Origin: Pomacea canaliculata
Taxonomy: Eukaryota; Mollusca; Gastropoda; Architaenioglossa; Ampullariidae
Length of the DNA: 64,000 bases
Direction: 5' to 3'
Assembly: GCF_003073045.1 (NCBI RefSeq)
Contig: NC_037590.1
Location: 43,254,296 to 43,318,295, forward strand
Position 1 is the first letter of the stretch. Each line of letters opens with the position of its first letter. A program made the position numbers and the translations under genes. Positions 2,877-60,706 of this stretch are shown here, one piece after another. A model generated the notes under the pieces. The model saw only the letters and a program-made list of their open reading frames with translations, was not told the DNA's origin and did no database searches.

Positions 2877-3033
2877 TGAGACACGTGGACAGGCTGCTAT
2901 ACTGCGAGGTCTAGTCACCTAGAGACACGTGGACAGGCTGCTATACTGCGAGGTCTAGTTACCTAGAGACACGTGACAGGCTGCTATACTGCGAGGTCTA
3001 GTCACCTAGAGACACGTGACAGGCTGCTATACT
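2877..3033. repeat. 44-bp tandem repeat, left part
   Basis: A unit of about 44 bp beginning gagacacgtggacaggctgc and ending ggtctagtcaccta is repeated about 3.5 times. Two of the copies lack two bases (acacgtgacagg instead of acacgtggacagg). The array is cut at 3033 by the hAT-like element and resumes at 4915. Confidence 0.9.
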
Positions 3034-4914: not shown

Positions 4915-5026
4915 GCTATACTGCGAGGTCTAGTCACCTAGAGACACGTGGACAGGCTGCTATACTGCGAGGTCTAGTCACCTAGAGACACGTGGACAGG
5001 CTGCTATACTGCGAGGTCTAGTCACG
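4915..5026. repeat. 44-bp tandem repeat, right part
   Basis: Continuation of the 44-bp array after the hAT-like insertion: about 2.5 units, starting with the target duplication gctatact and ending near ggtctagtcac at 5024. Together with the left part the array has about six units. Confidence 0.9.
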
Positions 5027-21560: not shown

Positions 21561-23163
21561 GGCGTGAAGCAAATTATCAACAAACAAATTTAAGAGATGT
21601 GCACACAATGTGATAACAAGTAACATGAGATACAACAAACATAATAGAAGTAATTTTAATATGAATGTACCTACTGAATAATAAATACACAAGTGTTCAG
21701 AGCGAGGTACATGATTTATGTCAGTGACAGAATATCAGTTCCATGTCCTACAAGTGAATGACAAACATGACAACTACACTAACACATGTTCTCATTGCTA
21801 AGAAAAGCTTGATTAGTATTACATTACAAACACTGCGCCATCGCCATCATGCTACCAATTACCTGTCTAGTAATTTCTTTTCAAGTATTCACTGTTTGCC
21901 AATTGTAAATGTGAGAGTAGGGAGTGGATTCCCAATCTACCACCAAGGACCACGTGACCACGTGGATTACTTACGGTAGCCACTACACCAGCCCATGAAG
22001 CCTCATTCTGGTTGGGATCACCTTCAATTGCCAGAAACCATTGTTTGGTGGATTATTTTTCCAGCAGTGCTGATTTATTTTTAACTTGCAGTCTTCATAT
22101 TTCATGTTTCAAGATGTTATCACCACCTACACCATCTGTAATTGTATCGCTGTAGTTGAGATTCATTCAACATGAGTTTGTGCCATTTTATTTGGACATT
22201 TTCTCTAGTGGTAATCGTGATATTCATTACTCGAACTTTTTTCATGTAGGAGAAAAGTACAACGAAAGATTCGTGTTGCAGCTTTAGACATTCATTTCAA
22301 AATAATAGTTGGAGAAGATTCAGAAGAGAGTCTTATGTGTAAAAAGAGCTATACACTAATGAATATTTACAAATAAATGTTATTACAGAACCGAATATGT
22401 ATAGAAACATAACAACATAAATGTTGATGTTTTGCTTACAACTCTGAAATTTCATTGTGACATTCTTGCAAAATGATCAACATATAGATGTAAAGCAATA
22501 GAGAAATAGTACTTTAATTACAGTATTCATGACCACTAAAACACACATTTAGCATCTTTTACTCAGTCCACAACTAGCCAGTGCCGACAAGACGAAGACC
22601 ACACCCTTGACCCCTTGACCCCATACCCCATGTACAGGAGGCAAGTGTAGACAACAAGTCTCTGCCTGTGTCCTGATGGGGTGGCCGTCTACCCCACATT
22701 GTACTTGTCTAAAAGCCAGTACTAAGACATCATTGTGGACGTGTTGACGATTCCAGTCTCCACCTTGTGGGAGATGGTATGTCCCACTCAAAGTTACCAT
22801 GGTATAATTAATGGGGGTTTCAAACCCTGAGTACCCTCAACGTTTAGGATTACAATTCACAGTTCTCTGTTCTTTCTTCAATACTTCGCTTTATTCGATG
22901 TTTTAATTTAAATTCAAAGTTCCACAGAACTGCACCTGGCTCTCCATGATTTTTGGACGAAATGACACTAAGCCTTCTTTTTACCAGTTCGGATTAGGCG
23001 TATATAAAACAAAACACATTCAGTCGCCGTATTGGTTGTATATTTTAAAACTTGCACCAAATCCAACTACAGAGATTTTAATATTTCTATAATATTTCAT
23101 GGTGTGATGTCAGTCTAGTCAGACTAGCAGTTCATGATGTTGCGTGTGTTTGACTATTTGCAG

Positions 23164-24084
23164 ATCCACAATACCTTGTATGAGACTTCAACCCAAAAAG
23201 TGATAATAAACTGGGAGCCTTCTACTGAAAACACACTGGTTACCAAAAGAGCAGACGACCAAGCCATTTACAACCTTACCATGGTGTCCGCATACTTCGA
23301 CCTCGGCAGCTTTGCAAAGGGGTCTCACAGCAACGTGCGAGGAAAATCTCACTACGAAGACTGGTTCACAAAATTTGGAGCTCTTCACAATCCTTTGGTC
23401 TTCTACACCGACTCGGACACCTTCGCTCAACTCGCCCTCCGTGTGCGGGGAGGAGAGTTAGCATCATTGACGAGAGTGATCAAAGTGTCACGTGACCAGC
23501 TGTGGAGCTTCCAGCTGCGAGAGAAAGTGGCCAGGATATACGCACAAAGCTCTTACCCGAAACACCTCCCCAACACAGTGATACCCGAGTATTCCTGCGC
23601 CATGCACGCGAAGTTTGAAGTGATGAACGACACCATCTGTAATCGCTATTTTCCTAGCTCGCACTATGCCTGGATAGACATCGGATGCTTCCGAGACCTT
23701 GACATCAAAGGCAACCAAACATATTCTCTTGTTCCACCTCAAGATCTTAATCCGCGGCTTGTGATGTATTCCGAAGTGTTTTCACCTGCCCTAACTATGC
23801 TTCCCTCAAAAATCTTTCGTGAAAATATTGTGTGGGTGGGAGGTGCGTCATTTGTTGGAAGAGCGGAAGCAGTGTTGGAGTTCACCGAGCAGTACAGACG
23901 CGCCACGGTTCGATTCCTGGAGGAGTGTGAACTGAGCAACAGCGACCAGCAAGTGATCTACTCCATGTTTACCAACGAAGGCAGAAATCTGGTGAAACCC
24001 ACAGTCGAGCTGCAGGTCATTCACAGAGGCTGGTTCGGGGTCGGCTATCAATGCCTCAAAAAGAAAAACGATAACTTTTTGTAA
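23164..24084 (+). CDS. HtrL/YibB-like glycosyltransferase-type protein, copy 2 (main exon)
   Basis: The exon follows a pyrimidine-rich acceptor ending tttgcag at 23163 and runs to TAA at 24082-24084, encoding 306 residues. An ATG at 23134 lies inside the acceptor tract, so I do not use it. Joined to the phase-0 anchor exon at 9001-9078 the product is 332 residues. It has an N-terminal stem (IHNTLYETST), then TMVSAYFDLGSF, YEDWF, the DxD-type FYTDSD (D109-D111 of the joined protein) and YAWIDIGCFRD (W196-D198). The C-terminal half, from YSEVFSPALTMLPSKIF to HRGWFGVGY, is conserved with copy 1. I infer a Golgi or ER type II enzyme acting on a glycan; substrate unknown. The two copies are tandem duplicates in the same orientation. 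Confidence 0.85.
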   Translation: MHNTLYETSTQKVIINWEPSTENTLVTKRADDQAIYNLTMVSAYFDLGSFAKGSHSNVRGKSHYEDWFTKFGALHNPLVFYTDSDTFAQLALRVRGGELASLTRVIKVSRDQLWSFQLREKVARIYAQSSYPKHLPNTVIPEYSCAMHAKFEVMNDTICNRYFPSSHYAWIDIGCFRDLDIKGNQTYSLVPPQDLNPRLVMYSEVFSPALTMLPSKIFRENIVWVGGASFVGRAEAVLEFTEQYRRATVRFLEECELSNSDQQVIYSMFTNEGRNLVKPTVELQVIHRGWFGVGYQCLKKKNDNFL

Positions 24085-28718: not shown

Positions 28719-30975
28719 ATGGATATCACAGAGCTGATCGTGTTGGTGACATTGACTTTAGCTTCACCAGCTGATAGTAAACACCATTCAGGTCGGCAAA
28801 CAAACAACAACAACGAAAACAAAATCAAATTTAATGAGACCAGAATGAAGATAATGTTATTAGCCGCTCAACAGAACCTTTTTCACATGAATGTCGATAC
28901 AAAATGTGTAATTTAGGAACTAGACATTCTAGAAAATCAAAAGACAGCTACATATTTGATTTGATTGAAAGACCTTTGCCATGGCCTGACCATGGTATTG
29001 TCTACGTGTCTTGCTTCTAAGTGTTTGACATGTGCATTTGTCCAAATTAAGGAACATTTTATTTTCTTGCATAGCCTTTCTTAGCAAAGCCATCTGTGTG
29101 TGTGTTTGAGAAAGAGAAACCTATGTATGTAAGTAGTAAGTATTCTAAACAAGATTATGTAGCATTTATCTTACAGGCTCAAGAGAACCGCTTCCTACCC
29201 TGTCGACTTTACAAGATGCTTTACATGCCCTCAAGATGAAGACTGAGGCCTTGGAAGAAAAGCTTGGTAAGAGGAGTGAAACAAGATGTGTTTACACTTC
29301 ACTTCATGTCCGCTCTTGCTTGATATTCTTCACTTAATGCACCACAAAGATGAGAGACTTTTGTAAGGCTGGTCAAAGTGCACCTTGTATTGAAGAGCAT
29401 AGAAAAAAGCGTCCGCACAGCTCGTGAACACACTTCATCCCCTCCTTCCCTTGACAACATTAGAAACATTCTGTAAGGTAGCAAAACTCATTCAGTCAAA
29501 GAGAAATACAAATAGATAAATTTTGTAAATTAGAAGAATTATATGTATATTTCAGGTGACATAGAATCGGTTGTTCGTACACTTCAGGCATTCATCAAGA
29601 CCATGGAATCAAATACTGGTAAGAAAAGGGAAACATGCTTATTTTACGACTGATTGGTTGTATGCAAGTAAATAAAGTCTTTAAATATACATGTATCTAC
29701 TCAAGTATGGCTGCTACTTTTATTTACCTTCAATGTAAGCAATATTAAAAATATTGCTTTCTTATTAGTGTTTGTTTTTAGCGACAACAAAATAAGATGA
29801 CAAGTATAGACCTTTGAGGTAAACGTGCTTGGGAGAAATATTCTTTATGGACACGTTTGTATATTTGAAATATTGTGTGTGTGTGTGTCCATGAAAGTCT
29901 CTCACACATAGTAAGACACTTTTGTGTAAACATAGACGACTACTAATGACCTTCATCTATTTCAGGTGACATGGTTCCCCACGAGACTTTTGATGCTCTA
30001 GAGATGATTATTCAGTATTACAAGGAAAATTTGAAGGGTAAGTCAAATAAAACTGTTTGTTGGAAGGTTCTGTGTCTGTATGTATTTTAATATTTTTACG
30101 TGTTCATCTTCAGATATATGTGCATGTGTGCTATATAAATATAAGTGTGTGTGTGTGTGCGTGTTGATGTGTTTCACTTGCTGTACAGTGTCTGTATAAA
30201 AGTTTGATAAGTAATAACTATGAGACGAATAAGTATTCACAACACGTAGAGGAAATCTTGCATAGAATGTTCTTTCTGACTAGTAAACTGTAAAGAAATG
30301 CTAATGCATGCGAGCGCGCGCGCACACACACACACACAGTCGCTTGTTTAAAATTCCCGAAACCTTGAAAATTTCCATGGTTTGATTTTGTGAAGTGCAT
30401 ATTGCAAATGCATGTGTATAATTGTTATCGTATATACATGGTGTACAACTGTTTTCGTTTAGACATAATGTACAATAAAGATTGGTGTCGAGTGTTGTCA
30501 TGTATACAGTAATGATTAACGCGATTATGGAAAAAATATTCAGTTTTTAACCAGCTTTTTTCCTTTTGCAGGTAAAGACGTTTCTTTTCGTGCTACATTT
30601 AAAAAAGAAGTAACTTTGATCGAAGAAGGGATAATAAAGTTTGACCATGTAGTAACAAACGAAGGCGATGCCTACAATGCTTCCTCCGGTATCTTCACGG
30701 CGCCTGTCGCGGCCGACTACATCTTCGGGGCTCAGATCATCACGCCCTTTCCGTCATCCCCACTACACTTAGAATTGAATGTTCTGGGTAAAAATTGGCA
30801 TAGAATATTTAAACCAGGAACAGACCATGAAGTTAAATTTTTATTTTTCCAAAACATACCTCTAGCGGCCGGAGACACGTCGTTTGTTATGAACAAAGGC
30901 CCACAGAACATTTCTGCAACGCCAGAAAGCTTTTTCATCGGCGGGATTGCAACACAAATTCAACATTCCAAATGA
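28719..30975 (+). CDS. Secreted C1q-domain protein, five exons
   Basis: Exons: 28719-28791, 29177-29266, 29556-29618, 29966-30037, 30572-30975. All four introns are phase 1 and the total, 702 nt, divides evenly to give 233 residues. Exon 1 encodes a signal peptide (MDITELIVLVTLTLASPADS). Exons 2-4 encode short helical stem pieces of 30, 21 and 24 codons. Exon 5 encodes a C1q/TNF-like domain: VSFRATF, KFDHVVTNEGDAYNASSGIF, TAPVAADYIFGAQI, AGDTSFVM and the closing ESFFIGG. There is no collagen region, so this is a C1q-like, not a classical C1q, protein. Such proteins are numerous in molluscs and serve as secreted pattern-recognition lectins; ligand unknown. Acceptors are good (ttcag, ttgcag). 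The donor of exon 1, GTCGGC, is weak. A tatgttccag acceptor just before the ATG hints at an untranslated first exon upstream. Confidence 0.85.
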
Positions 30976-41678: not shown

Positions 41679-44000
41679 TTAGGTGTCAGCATTGATGAGA
41701 AAGCCCGAGAACACCGCCCACACGGTACCCCGCATCTGAGTGTCTGCAGTGCCTTGGCGCACCCATACTCTCTTCCCCGTTAACAGGTGCACTGTAACCG
41801 TTGTGCTGCCCAGCTCCGAAGTTGTGGAGCTTGTGGACCAGCAGGTGGCTACGGCATTGTTGTCGACGATGATGTCGAGGGAGACTGGTGCCGACGACCG
41901 CCATGCAGGTGATGGTGAAGCTGTAAGTGCCAGCGACGGGGGCCGTAAACATGCCGGTGCGGTCATCGTACGCGTTGCCGATGTTGGTGAGGACGGTGTT
42001 GTAGATGATCGTGGCAGTGGGAAGGATGCTGATGGTGTCGTCCCTTAGATGAGTGTGGAAGGCCACATTCCAAACAGCAGTTCCTAGTTTAAAGGAGATA
42101 ACAACTTGCGATTCAGCAGTGAACGTTTCAGGTCAAAAGAACATAAACTCGTGTTTAATAAGTAATAAGAACAGCGAATCTTTGTACCCTCGCTCACCTA
42201 TATCCTCCCGACCTCCCCGCAGGGGGCTATAGGCTGGTGGCGGCCCTGGGCAGAGAAAAGATCGGCGGCCCTTTCGCCCGCCATTGTCAATAAAACCAAG
42301 TGGCGGCCCGTGATATTCTCGTTACGGCAGACTGTTATAATACTACACAGAGCTCATTGCTTACTCTAGCAATATTAGTAAACACAGTGAACTAATTAAC
42401 AACAAACACAATGCCAGCCAGGTTGTTATCAGCTGTGTCGTTAGTTTCTTTCTGTTTTATAATCAGTATATATATATATTCGAGTGGCGGCCCCTGGGGT
42501 TTGGCGGCCCTGTGCAGGTGCACGGTTTGCACATGCCTAAGGCCGCCCCTGCTCCCTGAGAGTTTGAATGTCACGCCTGAATTCCTATTTGAGAAAATAG
42601 AATCTCACTTGTTGCGTAAAGGGAGAGAATATCACTTTTTCACTTTGGTAGCATTACGCGGTATAGTCCCTTGTCCTTTGTTCACAGCCCGGCAATGAGG
42701 CAAAAAAAAAAAAAATGCTAGTTTCGGATGAAAGCCGGCCATGTTGGAATTAATCAACACCTTTTGTTTAGTATACAATAACCACAGTTTATGTGTCACA
42801 TAATAACTAGCTTTTGCTTGGTGTGCAAAACGTTCGTGTTTCAGTGAGTGGCTAAAATGGTTGATATGTCTGGAGATATGTTATGTCTGACACGTTCTCA
42901 CATATTCACTAACGCACACGGGTATAATAGCACACACTTTTGCATAGGAAATGTTCGGCCTCTGGGGACAAACTCCACTGTGACAGCAAAAGTCGTTGGC
43001 TCTCGCACGTTACGAAAAGATAGGAGAGGGAGGTGCAGGAGTGGAGACACACACACACGTGATACAGGGGGGCACCATCACTACACGTGTTGGTGTCGGT
43101 GTTAAACGACAAAGCAACACTTAACGAGAAATAAAAACTCACTGAAAAAGGAATCATCCGGTTATGTCAATCTCAAGAATTATATGATATTCAGAATAAG
43201 ATAAAAGTTATAGTCATAATAATAACATTCAAGGTTTGCAAGTCAGTGTGCTTCCCAAAAACAAACAAACAAGCAAACAAACAAGCAAACGAACGAACAA
43301 ACCTGTCTTCTTTGAATAATGCCTTTATTTTGTAATAAAGTAGTGTTTCTTTTTCCTTTCGAAGAGTTAGATGTAAAAAAAAAAAAACCCATAACTTTTG
43401 CTTATTGTGTTACCATCGTAAATAAAGATTTGTCAATAGTCTCAAACTCTCTCTCTCTCTCTGTTTCTTCACCTTTTCTGTACTTTGTGAAGAATCACAT
43501 CACTGGCTCAGGCTGGATGAGGAGGGCAATGTTCTTGCCCCCTCAGAAGTTTTTTATTAAGTAGGCGGATGAACCCCCCTCCCCTCTGGTTTCTACGAGA
43601 GAGTTATTTCAATGTAAGTCTGTCACACATTTTCACAAACCTGTGGGTTACAACAACCTAGTTCAAAGATTGCTCAGGCTTTTGGCTGGAAAGGGTACTA
43701 ATGAAAACATAAACATGCACACGCACGCATACATACGCACCCACACTTACACTCACACACACACACACACGCATTTATACACGCAGCTAAGAGAGGAATG
43801 AAGGTCAAAGGTAAAGACGACTTACTGCATGTTCTCTCTACAGCCGTCAGACGCGCCTGATGGTCGGACACCTGGCGGGACAGATCCTCCACCACAGACT
43901 GCAGTGGCGAAGGGTCGTCTGATCGCCGAGCCCGAACCTCATCGCGGGTGTCAACTACCACCACAAGAACTGCGGCCGCCAGCAACCACAACCACGACAT
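41679..44000 (-). CDS. Secreted C1q-domain protein 2, two exons
   Basis: Exon 1 is 44000-43826, exon 2 is 42083-41679, joined in phase 1 (donor GTAAGT, acceptor aactag). Exon 1 encodes a signal peptide (MSWLWLLAAAVLVVVV) and a helical stem (SVVEDLSRQVSDHQARLTAV) ending in a Cys, which could make an inter-chain disulfide. Exon 2 encodes one C1q domain: TAVWNVAFHTHLRDD, YNTVLTNIGNAYDDRTGMF, TAPVAGTYSFTITC, then VSLDIIVDNNAVATCW, TTVTVHLLTGKRVWVR and the end FSGFLINADT. Between FTITCMAVV and APVSLDII the frame steps by one base, near 41891. Counting one surplus base the gene encodes 192 residues. Because both halves are intact I suspect an assembly error before a pseudogene. The intron holds two transposon remnants. 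A TATA box sits 64 bp before the ATG. Confidence 0.8.
42220..42551. mobile_element. 332-bp hAT-like MITE
   Basis: Begins cagggggctat with ggtggcggccc just inside, and ends ggcggccctgtgcagg ... taaggccgcccctg. The inverted ends are imperfect (CAGGGG...CCCCTG). Flanks ctccccg and ctccctg look like a target duplication with one change. The centre is AT-rich without a gene. It lies in the intron of C1q gene 2. Confidence 0.6.
42943..43600. mobile_element. Diverged relative of the 3.0-4.9 kb hAT-like element
   Basis: Its left part tracks the first 320 bp of the element at 3034 (gaaatgttcggcc, acaaactcc, ctcgcacgttacg, gtttgcaagtcagtgtgc). Its right part tracks the last 130 bp (ctttgtgaagaatcac, gcccc runs, ggtttctacga). 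The middle is shorter and the terminal repeats are eroded, so it is an older, deleted copy, in the same orientation, in the intron of C1q gene 2. Confidence 0.7.
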
Positions 44001-45591: not shown

Positions 45592-48500
45592 TCACGTTTG
45601 TTGAAGATGACTTCTGCCACTTGTCTCCAGGACGTAGCGGCCAATCTCAGCAAAGACATCTTGTCCTGTGAAGACGGCCCGGGGCGTGGCCCAGGATGTC
45701 GGGGGCTTGGGTTGAGTCACGTGGATGGCGTGGACGTCTCGCCATTGGAAAGGCAGAGTGGGTCGTTTGTCTTGAATGGCTCGGCGGAAATCCTGCTGCC
45801 ACGTAGGATGACAGATGTCTCGGAAACAAATCACCTGAAAATCCCATCATGTTTGTTAGAAAAAGGGCCTAATAGCAACAAGTGCATGGTATTTTCTTAT
45901 TAAGCATCGTTATACTCTTCTTCTTCTAAACACGATCATGGCTGCCAATGGCTGCTGCTAACCATCAGGTATCTTATATCTGGATCGTGACTACGGCTAC
46001 TGGTGGTTAATACATTTGGCATCGGACGAGCTGCCAGCTGGAGGCTTGCTGATGCCTGTGACTGAGAGTTTCCCAGCACAGGGAAATGTGTTCTATTAGG
46101 AGAGAAAATGTCAGCAAATGAAGAGGGTTAGGCTTGACATTCTACCTAGACCCGTAACCCTATGACCTTATAACCCCATGCCTTTGATAGTCTTTATATT
46201 TGTAGCCTACTCTCCTGCTCCTTCTCTTGAAGGCTTGTAATCAACATCATCATCGCCACTTACAACTTTCAGCTCCACGTCTACAACACAGTTTGACTTG
46301 AACTGGTCCTGACTGGTCAGGTCTGGTTATTTCTGGTCATGTCTAGCACCATCAGCTCCACAGCTCTACAAATGGCAGGCAGAGCTAGTCTAAATTAACC
46401 GAAATCCGAAAGGTTACTAAACCTGTAGCTATCTTTGTTTACCCACTTTCCCTCTCACTCTAACTTCTCCAAATGTAAAAGGTGTGAAATGAATTCCCTC
46501 GATCACCTGCAGGCGGTCGTAGACAAGGAGTTCGCGGGGATGGTGCTCGAGGATTTTGTACGGCATGTACGTGGCCGTGAAGGAGGACCACTCTCTCTTG
46601 TAGAAGCGAAGGGCGTCCTGCCAGTGACGTAGCCACGGCGCCTGCGCACGGGCCATGAGGACGCCAAGGTTGAAGCAGTCGGGCCACGTGCCCCACGTTG
46701 GCCAATCAAAACTCGCCACGGCAGGGTAGTGAAATAACCAGTCAGGAATCCTGCTAGTCCACACTACGTCACGGTCCATGTAGACTCCACCGAACTGAGT
46801 CAGAATGTTGGCCCTGAAAGCATTGATTGATTGATTGATTGATTGATTGGCGGTCTACGCCTCTGGTAGACGATTGACTACTCCTAAACCATCACCTTTA
46901 ATTTTTACAAACAACGAACGTATATTTCTGGACTGCTTGCAAACAAATTTTCTGCTTTAACTTCTAGAAAGATGCTAAAGGACTAATTCGCTTCCGGTTG
47001 AACTTATCACGAAAAAGAGCAGACGATGCAAGCTCTCGTGTTGACGGAAGTTCAACAGCTCGAGCTTTACGGTTTGCTGTGTTTTAATTTATTGGCTCTA
47101 AGTAGAGAGCAGTGGAGGCCGAGGACTTTTGACCGAACAAGAAAGAAATAATAAGTAACAAAGTAACAAATTACAAGTCTGTCTTTGAATTTAAGAATTT
47201 TATCACGGTCCAGACACGAAACTGTTAAATGGTTCGTCGAGACCTGACAGCTGCATCTTCGCGAGAAACTGTTAGTCCCGGCACACAGCAAGCAACCCAG
47301 AGACTATACTCCCGTGGTACAAGCATTAGATAATCGAAAACATTTGCTGTTATTTCGCTGCCCTCCGAATGTTTGACATTGCGGTTAAGTCAGAATCGCT
47401 TTTAGAGGCCGCATTGTCCTGAAAGTCCGGTTCCTGCATTAAATCATCGGCAAACAATGTCTCTAGCTCCTGGTTTACCTGAGAAAGTCGCTGCTAGCTT
47501 GGAGGTTAGACATGTCTTGTTGGAACATCGTCTGCGGTCTGTCGATCTTGACAAAAGTGACATTCTCACCCCCCAGCGCGCGCCACCACTCGCCCTCGGG
47601 CTGCACGTTCCCGTGCACGTAGACTTGTTTCAGGCCCCCACGTGCAGGGCGCTGAGGATGCTCAGAAAGTGCTGGAAGCTGAGCTGCGGGACGTCAGACA
47701 GGTTGAGGGTCAGCCAGATGACATGAGCCACACGCGGGATGGGGCTTCCCATGTGAGGGATGGGAGTCAGCGACTCTCTCTGCCCGTAGTAGACCCAGCG
47801 AGCGAGCTCCACAAAAGACGAGTTGTCGCGCCATAGGTCACGTGGGTAGATGTCCCCACTGAGGACTATGCAGTGATGGAAACCGTGTACGGATTCGTTG
47901 TATCTGTTTACCGTCACGCAACCTGCCTGGTTGGCTGGCTGTCCGGCTTCCAGGTCCTGGAGCAACCGCTCGGCTTCAGACGATCCTAAAGCTCGTGGTG
48001 CGGCTATCATGCCGCGTGAAAGGTCAGAGGTAATCTCGGAGAATGCAAACCAGAAAGGCTCACTTTTGAGTTCTTTTGGATATCCCGCTAAAACAACGTC
48101 TTGTCCCATGACAAACCCGCCATTACCCACCAACAGCTTCAACGCCGACGTCAGCAGCTGTCCGGTGCCGCAAGAATCCGTCACGTGTGAGCGAAGCAGC
48201 TGTAGATGCGGCAAAGAGTTTTTCATCTCTTGAAACCAGATGTTGTACAAAGTCAGGTCGACTTCCGGCAGGTGCGAGTAGTGGAAGAAGATCGTGGTGG
48301 GACTGAGCATGCGCACTGCACTAAGCAGCGCCAGGTAGTGCCGGAAGAGGAACTGTTTCCGCCCGCACCACAAGTAGTGCACACTACGCGGCAGCGTTCG
48401 CAGGATCGTGCTGTCGCCGACCTCGAGGTCAGGCCACTCCTCGTGGGTGTACACATCATGGTACAGCGGCATCCGCACTTCCTGGGCCGCGGGCAGCTCG

Positions 48501-48827
48501 CGATCTACTTTGAGCAGGTCCACGACTCCTTCCTCATCTTCCGGTTGAAAATTTTCATTGAGTTCTGGAGGAGACTGTCCTCCCGTTGTACTGAGGAGGA
48601 CGGAGTGGTGCTCTCAGCCTCCTCCCGCCTCATTGGCGGAACTCTTGCCCTGTTGAATTCTCTCTCTTCCTCCGAGCGTGCTTTGCTAATCTTAAAAACT
48701 GGGATTCAGTTTTCCACAGCAGGAAGATGACAACACCAGCTATCACCAGTGTTGCAGGTGTTCTTTTCTTAATTGTCATCGCGAGAAAACGTTTAAGGTT
48801 CCTCGTCGATCTTCTTGAACTTGGCAT
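45592..48827 (-). CDS. DXD glycosyltransferase with two tandem domains
   Basis: Three coding exons: 48613 (or further upstream) to 47479, 46813-46507 and 45834-45592. Splice sites are good (ctcag|gtaaac, tttcag, ctgcag|gtgatc, ttttcag). The C-terminal part is a Gly_transf_sug (DXD) domain: IPRVAHVIW, VYVHGN, EWWRAL, NVTFVKIDRPQTMFQQ, FLRANILTQFGGVYMDRDVVW, with D-R-D as metal ligand. The N-terminal part repeats the pattern: LPRSVHYLWCG, HYLALLSAVRML, GNGGFVMGQDVVL, with G-Q-D in place of DXD. A hydrophobic anchor (TPATLVIAGVVIFLLW) follows an ATG at 48827, as in type II Golgi enzymes. The anchor lies in a different frame from the rest, with stops in between, and a second one-base step is needed at the C5 run 47635-47639. 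I infer a secretory-pathway glycosyltransferase; donor and acceptor unknown. Confidence 0.78.
46824..46850. repeat. (TGAT)n microsatellite
   Basis: Tandem ttga/tgat units in intron 2 of the glycosyltransferase gene, 10 bp before the acceptor of the exon at 46813. Confidence 0.9.
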
Positions 48828-51672: not shown

Positions 51673-52983
51673 TCAATGCTGGTGACGCACTTGACGGTGA
51701 GGATGTACCAGGAGGGAAAGAGAGGGAACATGCACTTGAGTGTCTTTGATGGCGACCAGGGAAACGCTGCGGCCTACTGTGACTTTGTGGGTGGCCAAGC
51801 TTGCCGTGAGTTTTGAACTCCGCAGGCTCCACAGGACAACGACAGCAGCCAACAGTGTCAGGAGACTACCCCGATGTCCAAGGCCAGACCCCAGGAGTAG
51901 GAGCGCATGCCGTGCACGACGACAAACAGGATCACACAACTCAGGCCGAAGGCTCCTGGGACAGAAAACACAGGTAAAGCGCTGCGGCAACCTTCCGTCG
52001 TTCTGTTCATAAATGAATATAAAAGGGAGACAACTACTAGATCCTTTAGGAGCTGTTCCACTATAGATTGCTTCCCCTTCCCCGCTGATATACTATATAT
52101 TTATTTAAAACTAATCGGATAGTTCGTTATGTTTGAAACTAGGCGAAGGTTTAGTTGATCACGCGCCATGTTAAAGTCAGTTACTGATAACTCAATTCAT
52201 CTTTTATACTAACATTGAGTCCAATAGACGGATCGTTGAGACTACGGTAGAGTGATGAATACCAGCTCACCACCAGAGATGGCGCCCACGACAGTGACGA
52301 TTTCGCGGCTGCGTCTGGGTCTCCTCAAGCAGGTCAGCAGCGTCCACACGCACACCGACACCTGCAGCACGGAACCCACACAGCCCAGCATCACCACCAC
52401 GCTGTCTGCAACCACACGATGTCGACACATCAGCTCTCTCTCGGCTGTTCCCTCGCATTGTGAAGTGGTGTGTGTAGATAGTGGTGTGTGTGTGTAGATC
52501 GAAAGCATTATCGAAAAATGAGCATTTTCATCAGGTGTCATTTCACCCATGCCAGTGTCATGTAACATTAACAGAAATATGTCCCTATCGACGGCTACAA
52601 ATTTTCTCTCGGAAACCCAAAATTTTGTACATTTTTTCCTTTAAGATAGGAACACTCAGCCACAACTCACCGATATTCCTTTTGAAAATACTACATGACC
52701 TTTGCCCTGTGTGGACCGTGCACTCTTCCCAGACGCCAGTGTGGACAAAGTCCGGAATGGTCATCATGTTGCTGCTTGCGTTATCATGAGACTGACGACC
52801 ATCCTCCTCAATCCAGTAAGGACTGACAAAACCGACGATGTAGGCGGTGGAGGAAATGACGAACATCCCGACAGCAGCCTTGAGACCCCAACTCGCCCGG
52901 CTGACGTTTTGCTTGGCCAGCCATCCGACCCGCCGCACTGTCTCTAAGAACTCAGAACATCTATTGCCTTCGTCTTCACCCAT
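51673..52983 (-). CDS. Claudin-like four-pass membrane protein A
   Basis: Exons 52983-52671, 52405-52271 and 51955-51673, phase-1 introns (donors gtgagt, gtgagc; acceptors ttgcag, tcccag). I start at the ATG at 52983 (MGEDEGNRCSEF), not at the TTG further up. The N-terminus is long (about 40 residues) before TM1 (AAVGMFVISSTAYIVGFVSP). The extracellular loop has the W-G(V/L)W-C-C signature: SPYW, then HTGVWEECTVHTGQRSC. TM2 is VVVMLGCVGSVLQVSVCVW; TM3 spans the exon 2/3 junction at a glycine; TM4 is SWGLALDI then LLTLLAAVVVLWSL. Between these two parts of TM4 the frame steps by one base at a four-C run, 51869-51872. The tail end is uncertain. Likely a claudin/PMP22-type junction or epithelial protein. 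Confidence 0.75.
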
Positions 52984-54207
52984 GCCGACGACTGACAAGC
53001 TGTAGCTGGGTTGACGGGTCAGTGGATGGTGCAGACAACATTCTAACAGTTTTCATACCTTTTCTATGTACTCTTTTCACGTTCACACAACTCCATTCCG
53101 TGCGCATGCGCTATACGAGCGCCACCTACCGTCTACTGGTGGGCATGTGAGCACGGCTCAGTGACTGTTAACCGTAAAACACACGTGAGTCGTGCGACAG
53201 TCACAATTGCATCAAGTGTGTGAAATGTCAATGATGAGGTGTAAGTGTGTACTTAGTTGTCATCTTTAATGTCGACAGTTAGCTTCTGCTTACATTTTTT
53301 TTTAATCACGCATCACAGATACTTGTGAAGTAAAATAAATCAAGTAAAGTACAAGCAAACACACACACACGAGCACTCTATGACCTAACCTGTTGCTATG
53401 TACTCGTTTGTATTTTTTCATGTAGGTTGCTTCTTGAACTCAGCAGAAATCACATAAAGAAATCGTTGTGTGATGCGAATGTCATTTCATCAGAATGTTG
53501 TATTCTCATAATGGATATGAAATATTTAGCAGGACACATCACAGGCCTGTCAGTAAAGTATTTGTCACTGTGCAACTGTCAGTTTATAGCCTCCATAGGA
53601 AGACAATGTCACACAGTACCTAAACTTTGTAAACGTAGAAGGTTTTTCTGATTAAGTGTTTCTGTGGAGAATAGCCGAGAGAAAAAAAGGTAGTATGGTT
53701 AGTTGCTTGTGTCGGCCCCCTACAGAGAGAAACTAGAACACACACACAAACCATGAACCACAAGCGACCTGGAGAATGTTTTATATATTTAGCACGCATT
53801 TACATAATCAACAGCACATTGTGTAAGTATACACTGTCGACTTATTCCTTTACAAGAGCAAAGTAACAGATAGTTGTAACATGTAGCACGTGTTGGCTAT
53901 CACTAGGTGAGGCAGGAGGAATGGAGATTCCAACTGAGAAGCTCAAAACGTTTGTTTTGGGCGACAGTGAGGCTGCAGACAAAACAAGAGGAAGAGGACT
54001 TGTGGACAAAGAAATAAAATGTTCTTTAACAGACATGCATTGACAGTAAAAGATTGTAGAGATCGTTGTCCATGATTGACAAGGTAAGTTTGATCGTCCC
54101 ATCCCATCCTTACAACACCAAGTGGCGGTTGGCTGTCCTCGTGGCCGTCCTGTCCAGCCTGCGGTTCTCACGCGGTGTGACACTGCGGGACAGCCTCCTA
54201 CCTGAGC
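52984..54207. other. Between claudin-like genes A and B
   Basis: No supported gene. The part next to 52983 would hold the promoter and leader of gene A; the part below 54208 the 3' untranslated region of gene B. No TATA box or close AATAAA is clear. Confidence 0.35.
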
Positions 54208-58306: not shown

Positions 58307-60706
58307 TCACAACCCATCGTCCTCTAGATTAGAGTTGCGGTATCCATGGTAACCAGAGCGGAGCACAGCCCTGGGGATGGTGTACGCTGGAGCGTAGGCG
58401 CTGTACGGGGATCCCATGACGTCACCATAGTCCCTAGCAGGTGAGTAAGGCATCGTGTGTCCCAGGTATCCTCTGGACATCGACGGACTGTCCCACGTGG
58501 CGAAGTCGTCGCGGCCAAGGTGGTATCCGTCCTGCAGGAGATGGCTGGGGCTGAGGCGAGCGTAGTTCACATCCTCCCACGTGTCGGGTATCGTGAGGTG
58601 CTGGCTGGAGTCTGCACGCACGTCGTGCAGGGGGTAGCCACCGAAGTGATTACCTCTGGCACCTGGCGAGGGAGAAAACACACCGGAGTTTTGATAATCT
58701 GCTATCGATGGTCTCATCCCCGGCGGCTGGTGACCCGAAAAGTAGGGAAGTCCGCCCACGGGTATACTCTCCGGGTAGGGCTTTGGGACGAGGGCAGCAT
58801 CGTTCCAGGGCAGGTAGCTCTCGTTCGCATGAGCAACGAGGGCTGTTGGTGAGGGCGTTGGTGATGAACATTACGACGGCGGTGACAATGGCCAGGCAAG
58901 CGGCGGCCACGTTGAGGCTGAGGGCCCATCCGTACCTGAAGTCGGAGGACTCCACCCCATGGCGAGTATGTCCGATGTACACCATGGGTCCGCTGAGACT
59001 AACCAGACCTGCACAGAACAGTCATCGCGTCAACGATGTAAATGTGGATGATAATTAAACCTGTGACTTCGACGACGATGATGATCGTGATTATAAACCT
59101 GCATCTGAGGATGAATTTTACGATTAATTTAATGATGATGAGGACAAGAAGGAGAAAGAGATAGAAAAAGAAGGAAAAATCAGGAATGGTAATTAAAAAG
59201 TTATAGAAAAGTGTTTTGCGATATGCGAATTGAAGAAATTGAATGCTTTATAGAAAATGAAAGGCTACTACACAAAACAAAGATGAATAGGAAAATGAAA
59301 ATATAGAGAACAAAGAGAGTTACTGCAAAAACACAAAAATAGACCAAAGAAATAAATATCAAAGCCAAAACCAAAAACAAAACAGAGATCGAGAGGAACT
59401 ACACAAGCACTAACTCCCCAAGTGGGTCTCACACCTGCAAGACATGATTGTTAGTTTTTGTGCCAATCTTCGCTCTTCCATCCACGAATTATTTTTCCCT
59501 CCCTCTCTCCCACTTACCTCCAATGAGAACCACGGATTCCAGGAAATAACTCGGAGGTCTGGGCTTGAACCTGCACTCGGTGAAGACGGCGGTGCAGCAA
59601 GAGAACACGAGGAACAGCATGCCGATGACTTGCAGGATTTTCACCGTCTTCACCCACTCTGCGAATGGAGGTCAGTGAGGTCAGAGAGGTCAGAGACGTC
59701 AGTGAGGTCAGTGAGGTCAGAGAGGGACAGGAGCAGGTCAGGCGACGTGGAGAAAACAGTCGAGTCAGTGATGTGTGTCGTACTATAGTTAAGAAATAAT
59801 CGCCAAGGATAGATGATGCGATGTTGTATACCCAGTTGTATGCCCAGACTTGATTTGTGAAGTCCTCATCACATTGTGTTGACGTAGTTGTGACCAGACT
59901 TAATTAGTAAGGTGACATAAATGCTTGAGGCAAAGTAAATTGACCAATGAAAGAAAGTTTCTTTTGTTTTACTTAAACTGGAGAAATGCCAGACATGTGG
60001 ACGATATTGCTCTAAGTAAGAAAATACAATGCATCTTAATGATCATGCGCTGTTCATACCGTCCATTACTTTGATATATATTTTACAATTGTTATCTCAC
60101 TCATGTACCTAAGACTAAGGAGTATATTATAAATGTTGTTTGTTTAGATTACAATGTCATTCATTTCTATCGTACCAAATGTATTTATGTACACTTATTA
60201 TGTTTTTTTCCAGTTTCTCAACATAAGCATCTATAAAATGATAATAAGTGAGAGTTTTTCTTCATGCACAGAAAATATAGTTTCCCCACGTATAGTTGAA
60301 GTGAAAGAGTATCTACGAAACCTTGACAGCATTTGTAATTTGAATGGTTACATGGTTTGATCAACATTGATTACCACCGGGAAGGACTGATCGCCGGTGC
60401 AAAAGAGAGAATTCTGGGTAAAAAAACCAAACAAACAACAACAGCAACACACCATAAAAGCAGGGTGCTACAGAGAAACACTCCCAACAGGTCTAAAGGT
60501 TGGCAGTACTAACCTTCATCGTTCTTGATGTTGTAGGACCAGATGTGTCCGCTGTCGTTGCGGGCAAACCACAGTCCCACACCAACATCGCCGCTCACGA
60601 TCCACGCAGGCACAATGGAACCGATGAAAAAAAGAATAGTGGCGATGAAGACAGAAAAGACGCCTGCGATGTACACGGGGTGTCTTGTCATGAGGACGAC
60701 GCCCAT
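58307..60706 (-). CDS. Claudin-like four-pass membrane protein C, loop cysteines absent
   Basis: Exons 60706-60514, 59658-59518 and 59008-58307, phase-1 introns (donors gttagt, gtaagt; acceptors ttcgcag, tgtgcag). The ATG follows an acceptor (gcatgcag|cc), so an untranslated exon probably lies upstream. TM1 is YIAGVFSVFIATILFFIGSI; the loop reads VPAWIVSGDVGVGLWFARND, keeping W and GLW but with no cysteine pair. TM2 is VIGMLFLVFSCCTAVF; TM3 spans the junction; TM4 is LSLNVAAACLAIVTAVVMFI. A Tyr/Pro/Ser-rich tail follows (NESYLPWNDAALVPKPYPES, DTWEDVNYARLSPSHL, SPYSAYAPAYTIP), ending LEDDGL. TM4 and the tail differ by one frame step near the GGG at 58840-58842. Allowing it, about 344 residues. 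Without the disulfide it may be a PMP22/EMP-like relative and not a strand-forming claudin. Confidence 0.77.
59669..59735. repeat. Imperfect (GTCAGTGAG/GTCAGAGAG)n repeat at a splice acceptor
   Basis: Seven or so 9-bp units lie in intron 1 of claudin-like gene C, directly before its exon 2. On the transcribed strand they read as pyrimidine-rich CTCACTGAC/CTCTCTGAC, so they form the polypyrimidine region of the acceptor. Confidence 0.85.

Follow-up and report, generated by a model that had tools for sequence, protein, structure and literature searches.

A GT32-type glycosyltransferase domain and a probable degenerate copy ahead of it in a Pomacea canaliculata gene

A gene on the minus strand of a 64,000-nucleotide stretch of the Pomacea canaliculata genome (the window) carries two tandem segments, called D1 and D2 here, which repeat the same motifs in the same order. 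The reading we favour, with somewhat better than even confidence and on the strength of the sequence, is that the gene encodes a type II membrane enzyme of the GT32 kind, in which an active C-terminal D2 follows a non-catalytic N-terminal D1, that the two domains come from an old duplication, and that the frameshifts found in the gene are indels of the assembly.

Results

The tandem repeat and the gene that carries it

The repeat can be read directly from the translated sequence. LPRSVHYLW (48394-48368) and IPRVAHVIW (47740-47714) lie in the same frame, 654 nt or 218 codons apart, which is the distance that the original prediction gave. Each of these PR motifs is followed by a helix, FRHYLALLSAVRM (48346-48308) in D1 and FQHFLSILSALHV (47677-47639) in D2, and then by a GG motif: GGFVMGQDVV (48121-48092) in the first copy and GGVYMDRDVVW (46791-46759) in the second. 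The spacing from the PR motif to the GG motif is 91 residues in D1 and 95 in D2, and the order of the motifs is identical.

Exons were assigned from splice signals and reading frame only. By this assignment the motif-bearing gene, at coordinates 45592..48613, spans three exons and two introns. Past its last stop, the D1 frame opens with a stem and pre-domain region (48395..48613) whose upstream reading is uncertain. D1 itself (47744..48394, from LPRSVHYLW to HMGS) follows in exon 1, where it was delimited by its open frame and its similarity to D2. Exon 1 ends with the first part of D2 (47479..47743), which has a frameshift inside it and closes on the donor CTCAG/GTAAAC. Exon 2 of D2 (46507..46813) contains the second GG motif and opens with the acceptor TTTCAG/GG; consensus favours CTGCAG/GTGATC as its donor, and other ends that keep the frame lie at 46525, 46465, 46459 and 46447. 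Exon 3 (45592..45834) holds the C-terminus, which ends in FAEIGRYVLETSGRSHLQQT and then a stop.

Both PR motifs fall within one open stretch of 327 codons, counted from stop to stop. D1 and the first 34 residues of D2 form one open frame of a single exon, so the fusion of the two is no artefact of the exon joins. Frame analysis places the change of frame in exon 1 at a run of five G (47635..47639), where the D1 frame runs into a TGA just past the IPR...HVGA segment; beyond the run, another frame carries on D2.

Upstream of D1, in the third frame and out of frame with D1, is a candidate start with a type II signal anchor, MTIKKRTPATLVIAGVVIFLLWKTESQF (48696..48779, minus strand), whose best 15-residue Kyte-Doolittle mean is 2.4. 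No single frame change links this segment to D1. The codon score of the anchor frame is negative (-4.27), yet it is the best of the three frames. At 48640-48560 the D1 frame (6.71) is outscored by another frame, which has the highest codon score there (8.54), and across the N-terminal region codon scores do not decide between the frames. The anchor would nevertheless belong to the D1-D2 gene in the reading proposed here. The layout first described for this gene was therefore right as to the repeat and its motifs, and missed the two introns, the frameshift in D2 and the out-of-frame anchor.

D2 is a GT32-type domain by profile

Spliced and read through the frameshift, D2 matches PF04488, the GT32 profile, with an E-value of 3.6e-8; the match covers residues 65-121 of 274 and scores 34.4 bits, where the cut-off is 23. 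This agrees with the earlier assignment of the second copy as a glycosyltransferase. The match requires the joined exons, since the exon 2 frame alone has no match to PF04488. PF05704 and PF12919 match D2 more weakly and under their cut-offs. The presence of SD-x-x-R followed by GGxYxDxD is a mark of the GT32 family, in which the SD-x-x-R positions bind the nucleotide sugar. D2 retains both, in SDFLRANILTQFGGVYMDRD, which spans the junction of exons 1 and 2. By its profile, D2 is classed as a GT32-type domain.

Searched against PDB sequences, D2 gave 45 matches at E up to 1, the best of which was the bacterial effector SetA (E 0.0021); glycogenin, a glucanase and clostridial glucosyltransferases were also found. 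The glycosyltransferases among these match over the DXD region, and we take them to point to a shared fold only.

Among viral contigs, D1 had no pattern match and the D2 exon 2 frame had two, neither of them confirmed; among genome contigs, spliced D2 had 63 pattern matches, of which 0 were confirmed. These collections cover viruses, bacteria and archaea, and are silent on animal orthologues.

D1 resembles D2 mostly over its first 50 residues

The likeness of D1 to D2 was measured in several ways. BLASTP without composition correction aligned the two with an E-value of 9e-05 over 49 columns. Their Smith-Waterman score is 64 against a mean of 33 for shuffled sequence, and it was matched by 0 of 1,000 shuffles of D1 in one run and by 1 of 10,000 in another; under three other scorings the observed score was reached by 2, 34 and 3 of 3,000 shuffles. 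Aligned as single sequences with hhalign, the two gave an E-value of 0.00077 over 47 columns with a probability of 25, whereas its global mode yielded no useful alignment. In a comparison across the window, D1 and D2 are each other's best match other than self (E 0.23 and 0.031), and the remaining matches listed for them have E-values of 1 or more.

Most of this signal comes from the first 50 residues. The portion of D1 past the first helix, compared alone with D2, scores at chance level (2,800 of 10,000 shuffles did as well), as does the portion past the DXD motif (1,567 of 10,000). A match over the DXD region, with 6 of 11 residues identical near the expected place, was equalled in 3 of 20,000 shuffles, in a post hoc test devised with the motif already known. 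Shared ancestry of D1 and D2 is likely, though not proven, and D1 is probably a diverged relative of D2.

What D1 has lost can be seen in its residues. The first copy has G-Q-D where D2 has D-R-D, as originally noted: in GGFVMGQDVV (48092..48121) the first aspartate of the DXD motif is replaced by G, and a full DXD is absent. In both of two alignments with D2, the SD-x-x-R segment is absent from D1 as well. One alignment sets SSDFLRA--NILTQFGGVYMDRDVV of D2 opposite TGQLLTSALKLLVGNGGFVMGQDVV of D1, and the other sets the SD-x-x-R residues of D2 opposite a gap. The original prediction called the first domain probably inactive, which is reasonable, as several positions expected for catalysis are missing.

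The original prediction also proposed a PF04488 search of each half separately. The D2 half gives the match described above, and the D1 half gives none at E up to 10. Across Pfam at the same threshold D1 matched no family, in a search whose filters remove most matches above about 0.1. Searches of D1 against NCBIfam and PHROGs at E up to 1 found nothing and are uninformative, because D2 in NCBIfam, and exon 2 in both, were blank too. Against PDB sequences at E up to 5, D1 had no credible match; three were found, two to biphenyl synthase and one to the glucocorticoid receptor. A structure predicted for D1 from the single sequence, without an alignment, had a pLDDT of 32.7 and a pTM of 0.23, values too low to be informative about the fold. 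A GT-A-like fold for D1 is suggested by its motif likeness to D2.

Other features of the window

An open frame at 23128-24084 on the plus strand matches PF09612 (HtrL_YibB, E 3.2e-12), a family with a bacterial name in what appears to be an animal genome. A C1q-domain frame at 30520-30975, also on the plus strand, is uninterrupted (E 2e-8). Two minus-strand regions, 52585-53052 and 58650-59021, have claudin/PMP22 matches under the cut-offs (PF13903, E 0.00013; PF00822, E 0.002). At 2878-3033 and 4915-5025, separated by about 2 kb, lie two tandem arrays that share an identical 44-base consensus unit in different registers.

Discussion

The favoured reading suggests a mechanism for the protein. 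It would be a type II membrane glycosyltransferase, presumably of the Golgi, with two tandem GT-A-like domains. In D2, SD-x-x-R and D-R-D are predicted to bind a UDP-sugar together with a metal ion, and the domain would transfer the sugar. D1, with neither the first DXD aspartate nor SD-x-x-R, may serve as a non-catalytic module: a folding scaffold, a dimerisation surface or a site for binding the acceptor.

The state of the reading frames bears on whether there is a working gene at all. D2 contains a frameshift, and at least two more frame changes (or an intron) are required to reach the upstream anchor; this could mean that the gene is a decaying pseudogene, in which the loss from the DXD motif of D1 and the frameshifts are both products of decay. 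The HtrL_YibB frame and the second C1q frame of the same window are intact, which means that indel errors do not affect every frame, and this too fits decay. A further C1q gene (41679-42132, minus strand) argues for the assembly as the source instead. It is unrelated to the D1-D2 gene and is also frame-changed inside its domain, being split over two frames from adjoining DNA that match PF00386 at 15-64 and 61-127. That two unrelated genes in the same window both change frame suggests that the assembly contains indel errors. Moreover, open frames as long as the 327-codon stretch persist, and D2 keeps SD-x-x-R and D-R-D together with a PF04488 match above the cut-off. Assembly indels are the likeliest source of the frameshifts, ahead of decay, and a pseudogene seems to us unlikely.

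With the gene taken as functional, the nature of D1 can be weighed. D1 retains the second DXD aspartate and the GG..DVV stretch, and GT-A enzymes without a full DXD exist, so a metal-free or single-aspartate variant site built on G-Q-D might make D1 active and the protein bifunctional. The SD-x-x-R segment is absent from D1 in both alignments and D1 has no PF04488 match, and we regard an active D1 as very improbable. It is also conceivable that D1 is not a GT-A domain, and that its motifs resemble those of D2 by chance or through a short common piece, given that Pfam returned no family and that past the first helix the score does not exceed chance. This would leave unexplained two segments which align in order and with almost the same spacing, and either of which shuffled sequence seldom equals (for the second, by the post hoc test), and we give it little credence. 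A non-catalytic, GT-A-like D1 remains the reading we prefer. The original prediction also suggested a regulatory or glycan-binding role for D1, and G-Q-D may be conserved in orthologues. We offer only tentatively the stronger form of this idea, that there is a lineage-specific tandem GT32 family whose N-terminal copy became a conserved pseudo-glycosyltransferase, acting either by binding the acceptor glycan or by allosteric control of the C-terminal enzyme.

Should D1 prove to be a conserved pseudo-enzyme, the gene would give GT32 an example of a tandem protein, akin to the accessory domain of LH3, and a system for studying what an inactive glycosyltransferase domain contributes to the active one beside it. 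Coming from one genome, and with frameshifts, the tandem GT32 layout is only a lead.

Relation to known glycosyltransferases

Double GT-A chains occur elsewhere. Proteins of the chondroitin synthase/polymerising factor type have two GT-A domains per chain, some of them inactive; they resemble the layout proposed for the Pomacea gene in this, and differ in belonging to other GT families. Among GT32 enzymes, human A4GALT (Gb3 synthase) and A4GNT are like D2 in having PF04488 with a DXD, a likeness that is drawn through the profile. The DxD of Gb3 synthase is indispensable according to PMC11546571, which describes an enzyme of 353 residues, predicted to be type II and GT-A, in which a tail, a membrane span and a stem accompany a single catalytic domain. 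Compared with that description, the Pomacea gene has an extra, degenerate copy ahead of the catalytic domain (PMC11546571).

A comparable arrangement is that of the collagen-modifying enzyme LH3 (PLOD3), in which, according to PMC6082870, only the first of two GT-A-like domains is active and the accessory one "may have lost its function". The likeness to the Pomacea gene, in the reading proposed here, is one of architecture: two GT-A-like domains in tandem, of which one has no detected function (PMC6082870). In LH3, however, it is the leading glycosyltransferase domain that is active, and there is a lysyl hydroxylase domain further along the chain (PMC6082870). By this analogy, a tandem of an active and a degenerate GT-A domain, as proposed here for D2 and D1, is a variant on a known arrangement, with LH3 as its precedent.
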